From: Clostridiaceae bacterium
GTDB lineage: Bacteria > Bacillota > Clostridia > Lachnospirales > Lachnospiraceae
DNA: 52,239 bases
Assembly: GCA_910575585.1 (NCBI GenBank)
Contig: CAJTGF010000036.1
Span: 1 to 52,239, forward strand
Direction of reading: 5' to 3'
A program made the position numbers and the translations under genes. Below are positions 3,871 to 33,482 of the stretch, one piece after another (position 1 is the stretch's first letter; each line of letters opens with the position of its first letter). The notes below the pieces were generated by a model. It was not told the origin of the DNA. It ran no database searches and saw nothing but the letters and a program-made list of their open reading frames with translations.

Positions 3871-5418
3871 CTACTCTTCATCCCAGTCCTCATCCCAGTC
3901 TCTGTACTGCGCAGGCGCCTCCCCCTTCATCTTGATCACCTGGGGCTCTCCCGAATCTCCCGGCTCTGTCCGCAGCACCTTGCACTGGAACGTCCACTCA
4001 TCCCCAAAGTCAAAAATATACTTAAACGCCATGCCCTTATACAAACCCACGCTGCCAATGCGTCTCTTCTCCGTAGTCCGCTGACCGTCCGCCACCTCTT
4101 TCATATAGTAGCTGTCCCTGTCGCTCCACTTTACATTATCCATAAAAAACGCGTGGGCATGGTCGTCGAAAAATTCAAAAGCGTCCAGGATAGCGCTGTG
4201 CAGGTCCCATAAGGTGCATTTGCCGGAGATCCGAATGTGACGGTAGCAGCCCTTTCCAAGGGAAACGCTGATAACATAGGATTCATCGGCTGTCTTTTTT
4301 CTCTCTGCCTTTTTCTTTTTCTCCTGACCTCCCTTTTTTTCTGACAACTGGAGCAGATCCATTATCTCATCTAATAGATCCTCATCCACATCCACCTTTT
4401 CCAGAAAATCCTCCCTGGCCTCCCAAAGCTCCGGCAGCTCGTCCACCATAGCGGCAGGGATCCCCAGCCTGTCCGCGCATCCTTTTACAAAGGCCATGGT
4501 GCGCTCATCACTGACTTTAAACCCTTCAGGACACACCCCCTGCCGCGCAAATGCCTTCAGCATGCCATCCAAAAGGGCATCCGGGTTCTCCTCATAATGC
4601 ATCACCGGCATTACAGGCAGGATATGCCTCGATCCCTCCTCCACAGCCAACAGCATCACCGGAAATCCCGGTATGGTATCCGGGCCTTCCTGAACCGGTT
4701 CCATAACCCGCACGATCCCGCACTGCCACACCCCCTGCTTTTTGGCGTTTTTCAATGGAGCTATGACATCCTCATGGCATTGTTCCGGTTTTGGCCATAT
4801 GACGGGCTCTTTGGAAGGAAGCTTTGTCTTGTCCAAAAGCCATGCCCCGCCCCTCTCCTCCAGCATAGGGATCTCTGTCGTCTCATCACAGTAAGCCTCC
4901 AGATCGAACTCCTGTCTCGATGTCCCTTCTAAAAACCCTGCCATCTCAATCGCCGCTGCCAATGCCTGACACAGCCACTCCTCCTCCTGGGGAGTCTGAA
5001 GATGCCACGGGATATCGTAGGGCTCATACTTCCAAAACAGGGGATACGCGTATTTTCCTGCCAGCCTTATGCCATGGGACCGGGCATAGGTCTTGATCTG
5101 CTCATGGGTCTTGGGATCCAGGCCATCCTTCTTCTCAAATGTACACTGCAAACATTTTAGGGTCATCAAAGTTTCCGAATACGGCAGATCAAATCGTAAG
5201 CACTTCTCTGCCTCCCACATGGTCCGAAACGACCGAAATCCCTGGTCTCCGATGTACAGACTGATCCCGTGGAACTCACCGTTAGCCCCCGTGACCGCAA
5301 TATAGCCCATCTGCTTATCGGACAGCCGGATGGCAAAGATATGAGAGTCTGAGATCTTTTCCCACAGTTTTGTCTTCTTATATTGAAACGCCAGCTCATA
5401 CAAACGCTCCAACCCCAT
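3871..5418 (-). CDS. Plasmid pRiA4b ORF-3-like domain protein
   Basis: A 515-aa cytoplasmic protein with no signal peptide or membrane segment. The C-terminal ~130 residues (about 385-515) match the pRiA4b ORF-3 family: a beta-rich fold beginning YVISVSLGKGCYRHIRISG, then LHSAILDAFEFFDDHAHAFF, and a closing GDEWTFQCKV strand. The N-terminal ~330 residues are the accompanying domain of unknown function found fused to it in Firmicutes. A Lys/Glu-rich linker (about 355-380) separates the two and an acidic WDEDWDEE tail ends the protein. No enzymatic function is established for the family. The start codon at 5418 is preceded by GGAAGGAAAT. It stands alone between two terminators/repeats. Confidence 0.75.
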   Translation of the reverse strand: MGLERLYELAFQYKKTKLWEKISDSHIFAIRLSDKQMGYIAVTGANGEFHGISLYIGDQGFRSFRTMWEAEKCLRFDLPYSETLMTLKCLQCTFEKKDGLDPKTHEQIKTYARSHGIRLAGKYAYPLFWKYEPYDIPWHLQTPQEEEWLCQALAAAIEMAGFLEGTSRQEFDLEAYCDETTEIPMLEERGGAWLLDKTKLPSKEPVIWPKPEQCHEDVIAPLKNAKKQGVWQCGIVRVMEPVQEGPDTIPGFPVMLLAVEEGSRHILPVMPVMHYEENPDALLDGMLKAFARQGVCPEGFKVSDERTMAFVKGCADRLGIPAAMVDELPELWEAREDFLEKVDVDEDLLDEIMDLLQLSEKKGGQEKKKKAERKKTADESYVISVSLGKGCYRHIRISGKCTLWDLHSAILDAFEFFDDHAHAFFMDNVKWSDRDSYYMKEVADGQRTTEKRRIGSVGLYKGMAFKYIFDFGDEWTFQCKVLRTEPGDSGEPQVIKMKGEAPAQYRDWDEDWDEE

Positions 5419-5545: not shown

Positions 5546-7015
5546 TTATTCATTTACAAACCCGGCCGCCCAGTTTACGATATGGGTTCCGTCCGCTGCC
5601 TGGGGATTGTTCTTCAGCGTATAGATCCAGGACCAGTGATTACTGTATTGTACCTCCGTCATCTCTCCATCCCGGTCATAATCCTCCGCAAACCGAAGCT
5701 TGTCATCCTCTGTGGTGTCATACAGAGACAATTTGTACATTCCGTCCGATGTCTCATAAGTAGTAAGATCGGAATTTTGCTCCAACTCCTGCTTTATGGC
5801 GGTCTCCGTCAGCTCCTGCCCTTCTGTCAGCACGGCAAACAGGCGCTTGGAGCACTCCTCCGTGTTGACCACGCTGTCAGTCTCTCCCTGTACCAGCCAG
5901 ATAGGCACCTTGCAGTCTTTAATAGCCTTTAACTCCTCATCCGTAGGCGTCTCGCCGCCTCTGTCGCTTGCCACGTCAAAAGCCGGGCAGTTGATCATAG
6001 CCGCCGCAAACAGCTCCGGGTGGGCGATGAGCATCCTGGATGTCATATACCCTCCTGCGGAACACCCTGCCACCAGGACCTTTTCCGGGTCCACTTTATA
6101 GTTTTCCACCACTTCCTTGATCTCATCGGCCGCTTTGTCCAAAAGCCCGTCCCTCTGGGCATAGTACCAAGTATCCGGAGCCTGGAACGCCATCACGTGA
6201 GCGCCGCCTAAAATCTCCTGGAACTCATCGCTGGCCCATGCCACACCGCCTCGGTTGCCCAGGATCTGGGCCACATTGTTGTGGGACTCCAAAAGATCCC
6301 CTTCCCCGTTGCCGTGGAACCAGATCACAAGCTTGTCAACATCCTGCCCGGCATTGTAAAACTGATAGTTGATGCCGCCGTCAACCAATACGGACTCAAA
6401 CTTGGCCGTCTCCTCATCCTCCACCGTGTTGTCGCAGGTATACTCCGCCGTGTACTGCTCATTAAGCACCGTCCCGTCCGCCGCAGTCAGGGTAATGGGC
6501 TTGTTCTGGGTGATGGTGTAGGTCAGATCGGCGGGATAATTTCTGGAACCTGACGTGTACGCCAAGATGGCTCCCTCTGACTGGTCGAAATAAAGGATCA
6601 CTTTCTGCCCGTCTGTCTCCGTCTTTACGATCTTTCGGTCAATGTCGTAATCGCCGTAACTTTCCAGCTCCGTCCCCTCCAGAAACTCCTTGGTCGATGC
6701 CACGGCATGGACCGTAAACGTATCATTCTCAACATTTGTCACTTTTTTGCTGTCACCGAAATCAATAACCATCTCGCTGACCACCTGTCCCGCGTCTGTT
6801 ACCGCGCCGTACAACTGGCAGCTGTAGGTATCCCCGCCCTCTGTCTCCTGACTTTCGGCTTCTGTCTGCTCCTTTGCCTCTGTCGTCTCCACAGCCTGGG
6901 TCTCGGTCTCTGCCTCGGTCTGAGGCGCTGTGGTCTCCTGGGCGCCGTCCCCGCACCCGGCCATCATAGACACTGCCATTGCGCAGATCAAAACCGCTGA
7001 TAATGTTTTTCTCAT
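5546..7015 (-). CDS. Lipoprotein alpha/beta-hydrolase, PHB-depolymerase-like esterase
   Basis: Surface-anchored esterase of 489 aa. A lipoprotein signal ends in MMAGC (Cys21), followed by a Glu/Thr-rich low-complexity stretch (25-60). An Ig-like N-terminal esterase domain covers roughly 65-200. The alpha/beta hydrolase core starts near 205 with the oxyanion strand VIWFHGNGEGD. The nucleophile elbow is GCSAG (Ser319), the acid is probably Asp380 in QGETDSVVN, and the base is the His in SNHWSWIYT near residue 463. The family acts on ester bonds of polymers, feruloyl or acetyl side chains; the real substrate is unknown. The ATG at 7015 follows GGAGGAAGGATC. Monocistronic with its own terminator. 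Confidence 0.82.
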   Translation of the reverse strand: MRKTLSAVLICAMAVSMMAGCGDGAQETTAPQTEAETETQAVETTEAKEQTEAESQETEGGDTYSCQLYGAVTDAGQVVSEMVIDFGDSKKVTNVENDTFTVHAVASTKEFLEGTELESYGDYDIDRKIVKTETDGQKVILYFDQSEGAILAYTSGSRNYPADLTYTITQNKPITLTAADGTVLNEQYTAEYTCDNTVEDEETAKFESVLVDGGINYQFYNAGQDVDKLVIWFHGNGEGDLLESHNNVAQILGNRGGVAWASDEFQEILGGAHVMAFQAPDTWYYAQRDGLLDKAADEIKEVVENYKVDPEKVLVAGCSAGGYMTSRMLIAHPELFAAAMINCPAFDVASDRGGETPTDEELKAIKDCKVPIWLVQGETDSVVNTEECSKRLFAVLTEGQELTETAIKQELEQNSDLTTYETSDGMYKLSLYDTTEDDKLRFAEDYDRDGEMTEVQYSNHWSWIYTLKNNPQAADGTHIVNWAAGFVNE

Positions 7016-7192
7016 GATCCTTCCTCCTTCTGTCCGTCTTTTAATTTGATATGCTTATCATACCACCGAAAACCGCCCAAATCATTTCAAGATATTTGAC
7101 ACCGCTCTGTACATGTTTGCCAAAAAAGATGCACAATCTTGTACTTATGTCAAATCTTGTTATCCTTTTGCCAGATCTTTGCGCTGACCGTG

Positions 7193-7206
7193 TGAAAACG
7201 TTAAGC
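7193..7206 (+). promoter_or_regulatory. Possible catabolite-responsive-element-like site
   Basis: TGAAAACGTTAAGC resembles the CcpA cre consensus except at its last positions. It is about 80 bases upstream of the sugar-sensing operon start. Resemblance only. Confidence 0.25.
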
Positions 7207-7246
7207 CCCCCTGCAATTCCATCTTGCGGTCCTTCTGTATTTGTGC

Positions 7247-7266
7247 TAGAGTGTGTTTGAAAATTG
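7247..7266 (+). repeat. Recurring 20-bp motif, copy 2
   Basis: TAGAGTGTGTTTGAAAATTG, just upstream of the ribosome-binding site of the binding-protein gene at 7288, the same placement as copy 1 before the deacetylase. Confidence 0.55.
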
Positions 7267-7287
7267 TCTATGGAGGGAGGCGTCTAT

Positions 7288-8316
7288 ATGAAAAAAACAT
7301 TTAACGGTCTCATCATGCTGTTCTCCGTTTTTTTCTGGATCTTCTTTTCCACGATCCTGGGATTTGACAGCGATAACACCGAAAATATCTCCTACGACCA
7401 CCGGTTCACCTTCATCAGCCCCTTTGCCAATGCCGGATACTGGGGCAGCATAGCCAAGGGCATGACGGTGGCGGACCAGACCTTTGGCGCCAACACGAAA
7501 TTCATAGGCTTTTTAGAGTCTGATGCCGATTCCATGGGACAGGCCATCCAGGCGGAGATCCTTTCCTGCCCTGACGGACTGATCACCGCCGGAAGCAGCC
7601 ACCCCCCGGTCGTAAACGCCTTAAAGGACGCCGCAAACGCCGGAATCCCCGTCGTCCTCATTGACAACGACAACCGTGACACGGACCGGCTCTGCTATAT
7701 CGGGGCCGACAACTATGAGATGGGCCGGCTGGCAGGAAAAATCATGACCGAAGGCGCCCGGCAGCCTCTGCGGGCGGCGGTGATCATCGGAAGCAGCTCC
7801 AGTGAAAATCAGCAGCAGCGTCTGAAAGGTTTTGAGGATCAGCTAACGCTTCACCCGGACTGCGGCGTTGAAGCCGTCCTGGAGGCCAACTACAGCCTGC
7901 TGACCATCCGGGAGATGCTGCCCTCCCTTCTCTGCGACCATCCCGCCATCAACGCCATCTTCTGCGCGGAAGGCTACTCCTCCATCATCACCGGCGAGAT
8001 CCTGGACGCCATGGGGCCGGAATACAGCCATATACGGGTGGTGGCCTCCGGGCACACCGCCGAAATCTTAGACCACATCGCCTCCGGCCGGTATCACTGC
8101 ACCATCACCCAGGACTGCGAGATCATGGGACAGCTGGCCGTGGAAATCCTGAAAAACTATAAAAACGGCGTTCCCCCAAAACAAGACGCGATCTACCTTG
8201 AAAACATCTGCATCTCCAGAGAAAACTTAGACAATGCCGCACCATACGAAAGCGAGGGCGTCACATGGCATCTACCCAACGGAAATCTTCTGCAGACACC
8301 ACACAGCGAAAACTGA
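7288..8316 (+). CDS. Membrane-anchored sugar-binding protein of a sensory operon
   Basis: A 342-aa periplasmic-binding-protein type I (RbsB/peripla_BP_4) protein. A basic start (MKKTF) and one hydrophobic segment (about 6-28) carry it out of the cell. There is no lipobox cysteine, so it is probably anchored by that uncleaved helix or released. Typical landmarks: FISPFANAGYWGSIAKGM, a LITAGSSHPPVV loop, GIPVVLIDNDN, CYIGADNYEMGRLAG and the late CTITQDCEIMGQLAVEIL. The start is ATG 7288 behind GGAGGGAGG; an in-frame TTG at 7264 lies within a repeat. The 3' end overlaps the next gene, a YesM-type kinase, by 52 bp. No ABC permease or ATPase adjoins, so its role is inferred to be ligand sensing for the kinase and not transport. 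Confidence 0.8.
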   Translation: MKKTFNGLIMLFSVFFWIFFSTILGFDSDNTENISYDHRFTFISPFANAGYWGSIAKGMTVADQTFGANTKFIGFLESDADSMGQAIQAEILSCPDGLITAGSSHPPVVNALKDAANAGIPVVLIDNDNRDTDRLCYIGADNYEMGRLAGKIMTEGARQPLRAAVIIGSSSSENQQQRLKGFEDQLTLHPDCGVEAVLEANYSLLTIREMLPSLLCDHPAINAIFCAEGYSSIITGEILDAMGPEYSHIRVVASGHTAEILDHIASGRYHCTITQDCEIMGQLAVEILKNYKNGVPPKQDAIYLENICISRENLDNAAPYESEGVTWHLPNGNLLQTPHSEN

Positions 8317-9755
8317 ACACCTTTTTTGCGCAGAATATTTTCTTTGTATTCCTTCTGACTATCTGCACCGTCCTGTTCTGCCTTTTGTCCGATCTGCGCT
8401 ACCGCCAGCTGGGACATCAGCAGATGGAACTGCACAACTTTTACCGCAATCTGGAAACGCTCCACTCCCAGCTGACCGCCTACGCCGCCAGAGGGGACGA
8501 TACCATATTAAAGGCAAAAGAAACCTCCCTGTCCTGCCTTAAGGACTCTGCCAAGGTCCTTGCCGACATTCCCGTCGATGCCGTCTATCAAAGGGATATG
8601 GCGGACACCGCCCTGATGCTTGACCGCTACAGCGCCGCCCTGGACCAGGTGCTTTCCTCCCTGCGCCCTGACCGGCGCAATCACTCCTACTACGAAGCCG
8701 ACAGCATTTACAGCGCCATCAACGCCGGTTTCCGCAGTCTGAACTTTCAGATTCTGGAACACACCAACCGGAAAATGGAGACGTTCCAAAAGACCCAGCG
8801 CCATTTTATCACCCTCATCACCCTGTTCCTGGCCTTTATGATCGGGGCGGACGTGATCTACTCCATCCGCCTGTCCCATTCCATTGTGGACCCCATTACA
8901 GAGCTGACCACCTCCATCCAGGGCTTGTACCTGACCCATGTGGAAGACTACAGGGAAGTGTCCCTTTTCTGCGCCTCCAACCAGGAGATGAATATCTTAG
9001 TCAGCGTTTTCAACTCCATGATAAAGACTATACAGGGTCAGATGGAAAAGATCCGTGAAAATGCGGACATTGCCATCAAACTCCACCAGAAAGAGGTGGA
9101 AAACTTACAGATCGCCAACCTTCTGCGGACAAGCCAGCTGAAAGCCCTGCAGATGCAGATAAACCCCCACTTTCTGTTCAACACCCTGAACATGATCTCC
9201 CAGACCGCCTATGTGGAAGACGCGGAACAGACCTCCCTGCTGCTGGACTCCACGGCCGCCCTGCTGCGGTACGCCCTGGATTCTGCCGCCAGGGAAGTGC
9301 CTCTGTCCAAGGAAATGGAAAATCTGGGAATCTACGTCTCCCTGCTGGAACACCGGTTCGGCGGCCGCATCCGGTTTACCTTTGACCTGGACGAGACATT
9401 CCACTCCATCACGGTGCCGGCTTTGATCCTGCAGCCTCTTGTGGAAAACGCCATCACCCACGGCGTAGGCATGTATCTAAAAGGCGGCCAGGTGACCATC
9501 CGAACCCAATACGATGCCGAACGCGGCCTGGGAATCATAAGCATCCTTGACAACGGCGCAGGCATAGAGCCCGAGGATCTGGAACATGTCCGCAGGGAGA
9601 TGAAGGAGTCCAGCCATCCGGAGCAAAAGCTTGGCCTGTCCAATGTATACGCAAGGCTGCGGATCTTCTTTCACAACACAGCGGATATGGAGATCACAAG
9701 CATCCCAAACGTGGAGACGGAAGTGTCCATCTTCCTTCCCTGGAAAATTCCTTAA
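8265..9755 (+). CDS. YesM-type sensor histidine kinase
   Basis: Membrane sensor kinase of 496 aa. Transmembrane helices lie at about 22-42 and 180-200, enclosing a ~135-residue extracellular domain. A HAMP-like segment (RLSHSIVDPITELTTSI) and a coiled helix follow. The His_kinase domain has the phosphoacceptor His302 in INPHFLFNTLNM. The ATP-binding domain shows LILQPLVENAITHG (N box), ILDNGAGI and a GLSNVYARL G2-like box. The start overlaps the binding-protein gene by 52 bp in another frame, which suggests translational coupling. It presumably phosphorylates the AraC-type regulator encoded next. Confidence 0.9.
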   Translation: MASTQRKSSADTTQRKLNTFFAQNIFFVFLLTICTVLFCLLSDLRYRQLGHQQMELHNFYRNLETLHSQLTAYAARGDDTILKAKETSLSCLKDSAKVLADIPVDAVYQRDMADTALMLDRYSAALDQVLSSLRPDRRNHSYYEADSIYSAINAGFRSLNFQILEHTNRKMETFQKTQRHFITLITLFLAFMIGADVIYSIRLSHSIVDPITELTTSIQGLYLTHVEDYREVSLFCASNQEMNILVSVFNSMIKTIQGQMEKIRENADIAIKLHQKEVENLQIANLLRTSQLKALQMQINPHFLFNTLNMISQTAYVEDAEQTSLLLDSTAALLRYALDSAAREVPLSKEMENLGIYVSLLEHRFGGRIRFTFDLDETFHSITVPALILQPLVENAITHGVGMYLKGGQVTIRTQYDAERGLGIISILDNGAGIEPEDLEHVRREMKESSHPEQKLGLSNVYARLRIFFHNTADMEITSIPNVETEVSIFLPWKIP

Positions 9756-9804
9756 AGTTTTTTGATGCCAGATGACCACTTACCCACCAAAAAGGACGAT
9801 CACA

Positions 9805-11394
9805 ATGACAAACAACTACTCTATCCTGATCGCGGACGACGAGCCCATTGAATGTATTGCCCTGGAGATGCTGCTGAAAAATAATTTCCCGGACTTAACC
9901 GTACTTCCCAGCGTGTCCAACGGGATCGATCTGGTGGCCCGCGCAGGCCAGGATCATCCGGATATCGCCATCGTGGACATCAACATGCCGGGCTTAAACG
10001 GCCTGGATGCCCTTGACATGATCCGAGGCCAGAACCCTGAGATGAAAATCATCATCCACTCCGCCTACAGCGAATTTGAGTACGCCAAACGGGCATTTGC
10101 CCTAAACGCGTCGGACTATATGGTGAAACCGGTGCAAAAGCCCGCCTTTCTTGACACCATGAAACGGATCCTGGACTCCCTTGGCGCCCAAAAGCAGGAA
10201 AGGTCCTCCCGGGAAACCATCCACCGGCTCACCGGGGAAGTACACCGTCTGGCAGAACACGACATCATGGCCTCTATCCTGCTGGGAGAGATCAATGACC
10301 AGACGGCGCGGATCTTCCTTGACTCCTTAAACCATGAATATGAGGGCGGCTTTCTGGTGACCGTTAAGCATCCCGAAAATACAGCGTTTCCCCGCGCCTC
10401 TGACGCCCGGTCTCCATGGGACCCCAACAATCAATCCCCGTGGGATCCAAAGGCGGTCCAAAAAATCCTGGCTTCCCTAAACCAGATCTGCCTTTGCCTT
10501 GGACGCGTCCACTACCAGGATCTATTGCTGTACCTGATCCCCGGCGCAGGCGTGGGAGAGGGAAACTACCGGCAGTGGACCGGCCACCTTTTAGAAAGCC
10601 TCCACCTGCCCTTTGCCTTCGGAGTAAGTTCCTGGAAATTTACCCTGGATGAGCTACCAGGCGCCTGGAAGGAAAGCAGCAGCGTCCTTATGGGCAGACA
10701 GGAATCCGGAGTCTTCTTTTTCGAATACGCCCCCTGCCGCCATGGACAAAACGTATTCCGTCACCAGGAAGAACCGCTATCCCGGCTCCTGGCCTCCGGC
10801 CAGACAGACCAATGCCTGGATTCCATAGACCGTCTGCTGCAAAAAGCCGCCGCTCTGGAAGTCCCGCTGGAATCCCTAAAGACCAACAGCGCCTGTTTTC
10901 TTCTGTCCCTTCACCGCAAGACGGCAGACTTGCGCTCCTTTCCCTTTTACGCCTCCGGCTGCGTCCCCGGCCCATGGAAAGAGCTGTGGAACAGCGCTTC
11001 CTACCAGGAGTTAAAGGAAAATTTGGACCTGGCCGTGGGCCAGCTTGCAAAGCTTCTTGCCCGCCCCATGAACAAATCCTGGGAATATGTGACAAAAGCC
11101 CTGCTCTGCATCCAAAAAATGTATCCCCAGGACATCTCCCTGGAGGACGTGGCCCAGCTGGCAGGCATCAGCCCCTTTTATTTAAGCCGCCTTCTAAAGC
11201 AGGAACTAAACGAAACCTTTGTGGAGATCCTGACAAAAACCCGCATCAGCGAGGCCCTGATTCTTTTGCAGGACCCCAAAAAGACCATACGCCAGATCGG
11301 GGAAGAGGTGGGCTACAGCAACACCACCTATTTTTATAAGGTGTTTAAAAAACAGACAGGCATGACCGTAGGAGAAGTGCGGCGGACACTGTGA
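9805..11394 (+). CDS. YesN-type response regulator with AraC DNA-binding domain
   Basis: Cytoplasmic transcription factor of 529 aa. The receiver domain has acidic residues Asp11-Asp12, the phosphoacceptor Asp58 (IVDINMPG) and Lys108 (YMVKPVQ). A long middle region (about 130-420) is typical of YesN proteins and poorly conserved. The C-terminal ~100 residues form two AraC helix-turn-helix motifs (ISLEDVAQLAGISPFYLSRL and TIRQIGEEVGYSNTTYFYKV). ATG 9805 is preferred because AAAAAGGA precedes it; an upstream in-frame ATG (9772) lacks a ribosome-binding site. It follows the kinase by about 50 bp. Targets are probably carbohydrate-utilisation genes, none of which lie next to it. Confidence 0.88.
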   Translation: MTNNYSILIADDEPIECIALEMLLKNNFPDLTVLPSVSNGIDLVARAGQDHPDIAIVDINMPGLNGLDALDMIRGQNPEMKIIIHSAYSEFEYAKRAFALNASDYMVKPVQKPAFLDTMKRILDSLGAQKQERSSRETIHRLTGEVHRLAEHDIMASILLGEINDQTARIFLDSLNHEYEGGFLVTVKHPENTAFPRASDARSPWDPNNQSPWDPKAVQKILASLNQICLCLGRVHYQDLLLYLIPGAGVGEGNYRQWTGHLLESLHLPFAFGVSSWKFTLDELPGAWKESSSVLMGRQESGVFFFEYAPCRHGQNVFRHQEEPLSRLLASGQTDQCLDSIDRLLQKAAALEVPLESLKTNSACFLLSLHRKTADLRSFPFYASGCVPGPWKELWNSASYQELKENLDLAVGQLAKLLARPMNKSWEYVTKALLCIQKMYPQDISLEDVAQLAGISPFYLSRLLKQELNETFVEILTKTRISEALILLQDPKKTIRQIGEEVGYSNTTYFYKVFKKQTGMTVGEVRRTL

Positions 11395-32772: not shown

Positions 32773-33267
32773 CTATGACGGGAAAACCATATTCAATTCT
32801 CTATGAAAATATTTAATCGGCGAATATCCATATCTTCTCTTAAACTCCTTCTCATGTAATACCTTCTTTCCGCTTATATGGCTGCAATACCCTTCTATGA
32901 ATTGTGACATCTCTGACCTGATCCTGTCTATGTTTTCCACAGTCTCTATAAATTCATCCTGATCGATCACTGCATTTTCTTTACTTATATATTCAACATT
33001 ATGGATAATCACTGCCTTAGAATAATCAAGACCTGAACGAGATTTTCTTGAACGAACCGATTTTTTGAAATAGAACGCATTGGAATGGGTAATATGACTT
33101 CGATAAGGAATACAAACCAAAACATCATCATCGGCTTGCAGAAAAAGGCAATCATATGCTCTCTGCCTTTTTCTTAAAATCTCTGTAAATGGCGGGGTAG
33201 GATAGGCTTCATAGAAAGCATCTGTCAGCTTTAAGACCTGAAAATCAAGCTTTTCTTTGAATATCAT
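32773..33267 (-). CDS. Type III toxin-antitoxin endoribonuclease, CptN/ToxN-like
   Basis: 164-aa predicted endoribonuclease toxin. The protein (MIFKEKLDFQVLKLTDAFYE, CLFLQADDDVLVCIPYRSHI, DYSKAVIIHNVEYI, and the C-terminal KEFKRRYGYSPIKYFHREL) fits the ToxN/AbiQ/CptN fold family in size and pattern. The context is decisive: upstream on the same strand lie a promoter, two perfect-length 52-nt repeats, an intrinsic terminator and then this gene, exactly the type III layout in which repeat RNA is both processed by and inhibits the toxin. Start ATG 33267 follows TTTCAGGAGAAATTCG; the longer open frame to 33327 would cross the terminator. AT-rich compared with neighbours, suggesting transfer. Confidence 0.78.
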   Translation of the reverse strand: MIFKEKLDFQVLKLTDAFYEAYPTPPFTEILRKRQRAYDCLFLQADDDVLVCIPYRSHITHSNAFYFKKSVRSRKSRSGLDYSKAVIIHNVEYISKENAVIDQDEFIETVENIDRIRSEMSQFIEGYCSHISGKKVLHEKEFKRRYGYSPIKYFHRELNMVFPS

Positions 33268-33284
33268 CGAATTTCTCCTGAAAA

Positions 33285-33316
33285 GTATAAAAAGGCGGAA
33301 GCTTTTAACTTCCGCC
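33285..33316 (-). terminator. Attenuating terminator between antitoxin RNA and toxin
   Basis: Minus strand GGCGGAAG-TTAAAAG-CTTCCGCC followed by TTTTTAT, 18 bases before the toxin start. It would keep antitoxin RNA in excess of toxin mRNA. Confidence 0.9.
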
Positions 33317-33447
33317 GGATTCATCACTCGGTCAATTTTTATTTTACCGACGAGTCGGAACCGTCACTCGTCTCATCGCTCGGTCAATTTTTATTTTACC
33401 GACGAGTCGGAACCGTCACTCGTCTCATCCTTAAAGATGTTATCTTC
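33288..33447 (-). ncRNA. CptI-like antitoxin RNA
   Basis: Predicted transcript from the promoter at 33454-33482 to the terminator. It holds two tandem 52-nt repeats (33429-33378 and 33377-33326) that differ at the last base, plus a 5-nt start (GATGA) of a third. Each contains the stem GACGAGT/ACTCGTC and a downstream ACCGA that can pair with TCGGT or with CGGT in the first hairpin's loop, compatible with an H-type pseudoknot. Confidence 0.78.
33326..33429 (-). repeat. Two tandem 52-bp repeats
   Basis: 33326-33377 and 33378-33429 are identical apart from the first plus-strand base (A versus G). No unique spacers lie between them, so this is not a CRISPR. Confidence 0.95.
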
Positions 33448-33453
33448 TCTATA

Positions 33454-33482
33454 AGTATATTCCATTATTATCTCTTTTTCAA
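33454..33482 (-). promoter_or_regulatory. Promoter of the type III TA locus
   Basis: Minus strand TTGAAA (33482-33477), 17-base spacer, TATACT (33459-33454), about 25 bases before the first repeat. Confidence 0.75.

Follow-up and report, generated by a model that had tools for sequence, protein, structure and literature searches.

TenpIN, CptIN and ToxIN are studied type III toxin-antitoxin systems. A TenpIN locus runs from repeats through a terminator to a toxin (extract of PMC5086642), and the TenpIN locus of Photorhabdus luminescens aborts phages (extract of PMC5377504). Three ToxI-type antitoxins have units of 34-36 nucleotides (nt) in 2.8-5.5 copies, according to the extract of PMC5086642; the CptIN system of Eubacterium rectale (PDB 4rmo) has a processed unit of 45 nt. 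Phage PhiTE encodes pseudo-ToxI, a type III antitoxin copy which is used against the toxin; as the extract of PMC3475682 describes it, the wild-type phage has 1.5 repeats, which do not make one full active RNA and must expand.

The stretch of DNA analysed here, called the window, is the 52,239-nt contig CAJTGF010000036.1 from a gut bacterium. Its minus strand carries, from 33482 to 32773, a new TenpIN locus of known type; that it is a chromosomal type III toxin-antitoxin locus working by the mechanism proposed below is very probable. The toxin family, the predicted fold, the gene order and, through covariation, the antitoxin pseudoknot are supported here. Cutting, inhibition, release and phage defence would follow by analogy with the studied ToxIN, CptIN and TenpIN systems. 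The locus shares its toxin family (NF047358) and gene order with TenpIN of P. luminescens; the pseudoknot is described from covariation for the window locus. The toxin is of a different sequence family from that of E. rectale CptIN, and the repeat period is 52 nt as against 45. It also differs from the ToxIN and AbiQ toxins (PDB 4ato, 2xd0, 7d8o, 4glk) in that no Pfam model, the ToxN model PF13958 included, matches it up to an expect value (E) of 1.

Toxin and locus architecture

The toxin open reading frame (ORF) encodes 164 amino acids (32773..33267, minus strand; ATG at 33267, stop at 32775-32773). The protein matches the NCBIfam TenpIN model NF047358 over its full length (profile 1-141 of 141; E 5.6e-46; 156.3 bits, cut-off 90). 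All 49 relatives that were profiled also match the model. Its AlphaFold2 model has a predicted local distance difference test score (pLDDT) of 89.0 and a predicted template modelling score (pTM) of 0.85, and in structural comparison it is similar to ToxN, AbiQ and CptN, which places it in the ToxN fold. The product is a predicted endoribonuclease of the ToxN/MazF fold. An earlier note on this DNA, made from its letters alone, had called the protein ToxN/CptN-like; this holds for the predicted structure but not for the sequence family, which is TenpN. The profile search that the note proposed as a check leaves both the ToxN and CptN families unmatched and finds TenpIN instead.

Relatives were collected by a genome profile search together with the repeat pattern, and protein alignment A2 holds the window toxin and 48 of 54 proteins. 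Other searches returned little. A sequence search of the PDB with the toxin and its profile gave nothing credible and no TenpN relative, PADLOC had no match at the locus, and a single-protein search for related loci yielded no confirmed relative in the genome or in viral contigs. The toxin is unmatched among INPHARED phages; a plasmid search returned 38 records, every one below 60% identity.

The order of repeats, intrinsic terminator and toxin is that of TenpIN. The antitoxin (TenpI) consists of two 52-nt units in tandem, at 33378..33429 and 33326..33377, which differ by one base; they are followed by GATGA (33321..33325), the first five nucleotides of a third unit. A tandem-repeat count gives a period of 52 and 2.10 copies. 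The repeat core is confined to this locus within the 6.1-Mb genome (two matches; none for the reversed pattern). A terminator scan places a hairpin, GGCGGAAGTT-AAA-AGCTTCCGCC with a T-rich tail (TTTTT), between antitoxin and toxin at 33294..33316; it is the sole terminator in the scanned stretch, where 0.7 were expected. The ribosome-binding site AGGAG (33275..33279) lies 7 nt 5' of the ATG. Upstream of the repeats, a sigma-70-type promoter-like site for the antitoxin/toxin transcript, TTGAAA-17-TATACT (33454..33482), is recognised by consensus only, with 10 of 12 positions matching; a 1.2-kb scan finds six such sites against 2.4 expected, so that by itself it is weak evidence. All of these elements lie on the minus strand, as the earlier note reported, and its remark that the locus is AT-rich beside GC-richer neighbours is also borne out (GC about 0.36-0.38 versus 0.50-0.60). 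What the note observed is thus confirmed; what it made of the observations is partly supported.

By analogy with the studied systems, one promoter would drive the repeats, and the terminator would pass only part of the transcripts to the toxin. The ToxN-fold ribonuclease would cut the repeat RNA at the unit junctions; GATGA and these junctions are the candidate cutting places, as judged from ToxIN and CptIN. Each freed unit would fold into an H-type pseudoknot which binds and blocks the toxin. If host transcription stopped, as in phage infection, the RNA would run out and the toxin would cut cell RNA.

The window genome has further matches to the ToxN family (PF13958), in two overlapping pieces on contig C88 and one piece on contig C19 (L001-L003; loci are numbered L, genomes G). 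A stop was noted inside each matched stretch, and these are apparently further type III loci, broken. Elsewhere in the window, 13916-14032 matches drum RNA (RF02958; 91.7 bits, gathering score 43).

The antitoxin pseudoknot

On the evidence of sequence covariation, the repeat unit is an H-type pseudoknot with a 7-base-pair (bp) stem 1, a 5-bp stem 2 and an A-rich linker. In unit 1, stem 1 pairs 33424-33418 with 33407-33401, and stem 2 pairs 33415-33411 with 33385-33381; the linker lies between the 3' arms of the two stems. The support is divided between relatives at two distances: close relatives show covariation of stem 1, distant relatives that of stem 2, and together they indicate the pseudoknot.

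Close relatives were compared in alignment A1, which has 45 units (44 distinct): the two window units and 43 of the 103 distinct units, among the matches listed, that lie upstream of a full or partial toxin match. Stem 1 shows base-pair swaps with 62 double-change cells, a figure which none of 500 shuffles equals. Its covariation is 0.336, compared with 0.098 in shuffles, and again 0/500 reach it. Sliding the stem 1 partners by 1-3 columns lowers pairing from 99.6% to at most 41.3%. Stem 2 (CGGUU with GACCG) is near-invariant in this alignment. The pattern with which the A1 units were found fixed TGACGGTT, GAC and CGGTAAA but not the 3' strand of stem 2. It therefore imposes invariance at the fixed positions and accounts for some of the resemblance of the phage units to those of the window.

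Distant TenpIN loci, which were found through the toxin and not through the repeat, have the same unit layout with other stem 2 pairs: GAGC/GCUC, GGGC/GUCC, GGUC/GACC, AGGC/GCCU and GGAU/AUCC. In the 16 distant units of alignment A5, each of the four stem 2 pairs has changes on both sides and no cell is unpaired, a count which leans towards structure since the units were picked by a pseudoknot search; the shuffle control for this is the strict pseudoknot search of the next section. These 16 come from 27 units given by the search (L030 gave none), after repeats of near-identical loci, class-1 rows and one doubtful row from L028 were dropped. Alignment A3 had shifted stem 2 in some of the distant units; the ends were re-cut and the units realigned as A5, which likewise leans towards structure. 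Because the strand 3' of the A-rich linker tracks the loop changes in distant units, the crossing pairing is the conserved one, and not the hairpin formed with the stretch just 3' of stem 1.

The earlier note had named both pairings, GACGAGT/ACTCGTC and CGGT/ACCG, as mutually exclusive. They are the pseudoknot pairings, but they cross and form together; the exclusive alternative is a second CGGT just 3' of stem 1, three bases of which pair with the ACCG stretch in the pseudoknot-free fold. An Rfam search of the repeat unit, which the note had also proposed, matched no antitoxin family, and the best matches were well below gathering scores.

By an uncontrolled count, 54 of 72 TenpIN loci with a toxin (L045-L185, among the matches listed) have a leader able to pair with the array's end over at least 6 bp. 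CTTCATC with GATGAAG is an example of this pairing, a putative outer clamp around the repeats.

Copy number, decay and competing readings of the locus

A strict pseudoknot search was applied to 26 loci with an intact toxin above the family cut-off, L026 being kept out for its internal stop. It scores at least two units in 22, one in two (L018 and L214, the latter perhaps by chance) and none in two (L030 and L215, whose repeats differ by eye). Shuffles of the same stretches reach two units in 2 of 520. One of the two units of L028 appears to be spurious; L022 and L023 are each given three units, versus about two by tandem-repeat count. Since 22 of the 26 score at least two, two repeats are usual and not a reduction, contrary to the earlier view that this antitoxin is very short.

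TenpIN matches occur in 28 of 397 genomes in a family sample (15 over cut-off), 25 of 392 in an order sample (16 over cut-off) and 8 of 398 in a phylum sample (two over cut-off); the samples overlap and each includes the window genome. Within the genus, the stretch between the same neighbour genes was compared in seven other species with both flanks and in G006 with one. At this site G006 keeps a single unit with a broken toxin; G016 keeps a single unit with a terminator-like hairpin but no toxin. By eye, G010 and G005 have a terminator-like hairpin at most; no unit or toxin was recognised at the site in the remaining species. Full-length relatives occur on other contigs in three more species of the genus (G015, G008, G025). 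To judge from the remnants in G006 and G016, the toxin was lost earlier there than the antitoxin, which is what a working pair would lead one to expect. Seven contigs among the matches listed (L047, L071, L081, L119, L121, L138, L153), from Lachnospiraceae and one Eubacteriales metagenome-assembled genome, have a solo TenpI unit and then an apparent terminator hairpin, with no TenpN; very short stretches resembling the toxin are seen in L119 and L081 (E about 5e-4 and 9e-4). These are probably loci with a decayed toxin. Outside Clostridia, a solo unit is seen in Streptococcus danieliae (L130, L159), where no TenpN was found.

Several results count against a working TenpIN locus with a pseudoknot antitoxin. 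Foldseek returns nothing for the toxin model at E <= 0.001 (best 0.022). Stem 2 changes in close relatives are just U-G/U-A; 473 of 500 shuffles are as high as A1 in pairs changed on both sides, and 195 of 500 in further pair types, the latter figure being 172 of 500 for A5. The covariation shuffles of A1 and A5 do not keep relatedness. With pseudoknots disallowed, a single unit folds no better than shuffles (z -0.66). The site is intact in none of the eight sister species compared.

This last result bears on the possibility that the locus is itself decayed, with an intact protein but a lost promoter or antitoxin function. The site is broken or empty in all eight, and the leader/tail stem of at least 6 bp that most relatives have was not found at that length in the window. 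Against decay, the ORF is intact and matches the full profile, the terminator and ribosome-binding site are present, and all pseudoknot pairs are intact in both units; moreover, a working toxin could hardly be maintained beside a dead antitoxin. Decay is improbable. The CptIN assignment of the earlier note is rejected as barely credible, for although one of the 49 relatives also matches the CptIN model NF047359 (at 0.0052), the window toxin does not match it up to E = 1 and all match TenpIN. The TenpIN locus extends its family in Clostridia and gives it a covariation-supported antitoxin fold.

Solo units on phage contigs

A search of IMG/VR viral contigs with the unit pattern matches 29 contigs, of which 25 have a real unit (stem 1 complete, at least seven pairs). 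The other four (L165, L178, L182, L192) are chance matches with just 1-3 pairs in stem 1. The TenpIN model, run over whole contigs, finds a toxin for two of the 25 (L174 and L185) and none in the other 23, which carry no completeness grade and may be fragments. A second unit pattern adds one genuine viral locus, L194, with toxin; its other matches (L195-L203) show no unit, and nothing in viral contigs matches a pattern made for TenpI units of the second class. The window repeats are unmatched among INPHARED phages, where one partial match to a phage unit occurs (MT835481). By eye, this human-gut phage (L204, MT835481.1) seems to have two altered TenpI units near 3950-4050; in one of them both stem 1 and stem 2 are different.

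In 19 of the 23 toxin-less contigs the solo unit lies within a transfer RNA (tRNA) array. These fall into four groups (A, B, C and L179) with six distinct unit sequences, and so represent few lineages rather than 19 cases. The unit lies between tRNA-Phe and tRNA-Lys in group A (10 contigs) and group B (6), L181 being seen on the tRNA-Lys side alone. Group C (L172, L189) has it upstream of tRNA-Leu; Rfam, run on L172, finds a skipping-rope RNA on the other side in that contig. The unit core of L179 begins 23 nt past tRNA-Gly, and a skipping-rope RNA lies beyond. The other four toxin-less contigs are L173, with a broken stem 2, and L184, L191 and L193, with at least two units. Two bacterial assemblies among the matches listed (L126, L142) have a group A unit and no other copy of the pattern.

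Gene content was noted for several of these contigs. The 110-kb contig L179 encodes a Hoc-like protein and, near the solo unit, a reverse transcriptase (phrog_1423; 6984-8255) and an RNA-binding protein (phrog_850; 9199-10728), which we take to be TROVE/Ro60-like. A 19.9-kb piece of the L189 contig has primase/helicase, exonuclease and other PHROG genes. The L167 terminase large subunit is 38% identical to those of SPbeta and phi3T and 46% to that of a human-gut phage.

The simplest and likeliest reading, by analogy with pseudo-ToxI of PhiTE, is that the phage units are RNA antidotes. As complete single TenpI units in the tRNA arrays of large phages, they would be transcribed and trimmed with the tRNAs as infection proceeds, bind host TenpN and keep TenpIN loci off, as natural antidotes to a type III abortive-infection system in several phage lineages; we hold this to be moderately probable. 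Unlike the 1.5 repeats of PhiTE, 17 of the 19 tRNA-array units carry both stems complete. The alternative, plausible though short of probable, would make them relics of, or regulatory leaders in, the tRNA/terminase region. In L166 (group B) and L167 (group A) the next genes after the unit are a phrog_3314 gene and the terminase large subunit gene, a point for this alternative. Group A by itself shows little difference in conservation between the unit (96-100%) and its flanks (downstream 95-100%), which leaves A versus B as the one informative contrast. There the terminase large subunits are 69% identical and the units 91-94%, with one compensated stem 1 pair and both stems and the A-rich linker kept, whereas identity is only 31% over the next 150 nt downstream; it is 65% over the 60 nt upstream, which are partly tRNA-Phe. 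This conservation, and the position of the unit beside other tRNAs in group C and L179, speak against relics or leaders. In their favour, a change breaks one stem 2 pair in L175 and L177, and the 3' junction is altered: after stem 2, bacterial arrays commonly have GAGYGATG or GAGYGAAG, and groups A and B have GAGTGTGG or a variant. Given this junction, cutting of the phage RNA may differ from that of cognate RNA. The antidote reading is weakened by the small number of distinct units, the little contrast within group A and the broken pair.

Identity to the window unit core, many of whose 46 positions were fixed by the search pattern, is 44 in group B, 43 in group A (L167), 41 in group C and 32, ungapped, in L179. 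We do not claim an outer stem that closes the phage units, since 19 to 52 of 300 shuffles also reach 6 bp; the pairing has 6 bp in group B and in nine of ten group A viral contigs, 8 bp in L179, and only 4 bp in L188, L172 and L189.

No report of natural solo TenpI units in phage tRNA arrays was found in the open-licence literature. If the phage units work, phages defeat a type III system with a ready-made copy of its antitoxin RNA in the tRNA cluster. TenpIN would then act against phages in nature, loci like that of the window would be under phage pressure, and an anti-defence role would be added to phage tRNA arrays.
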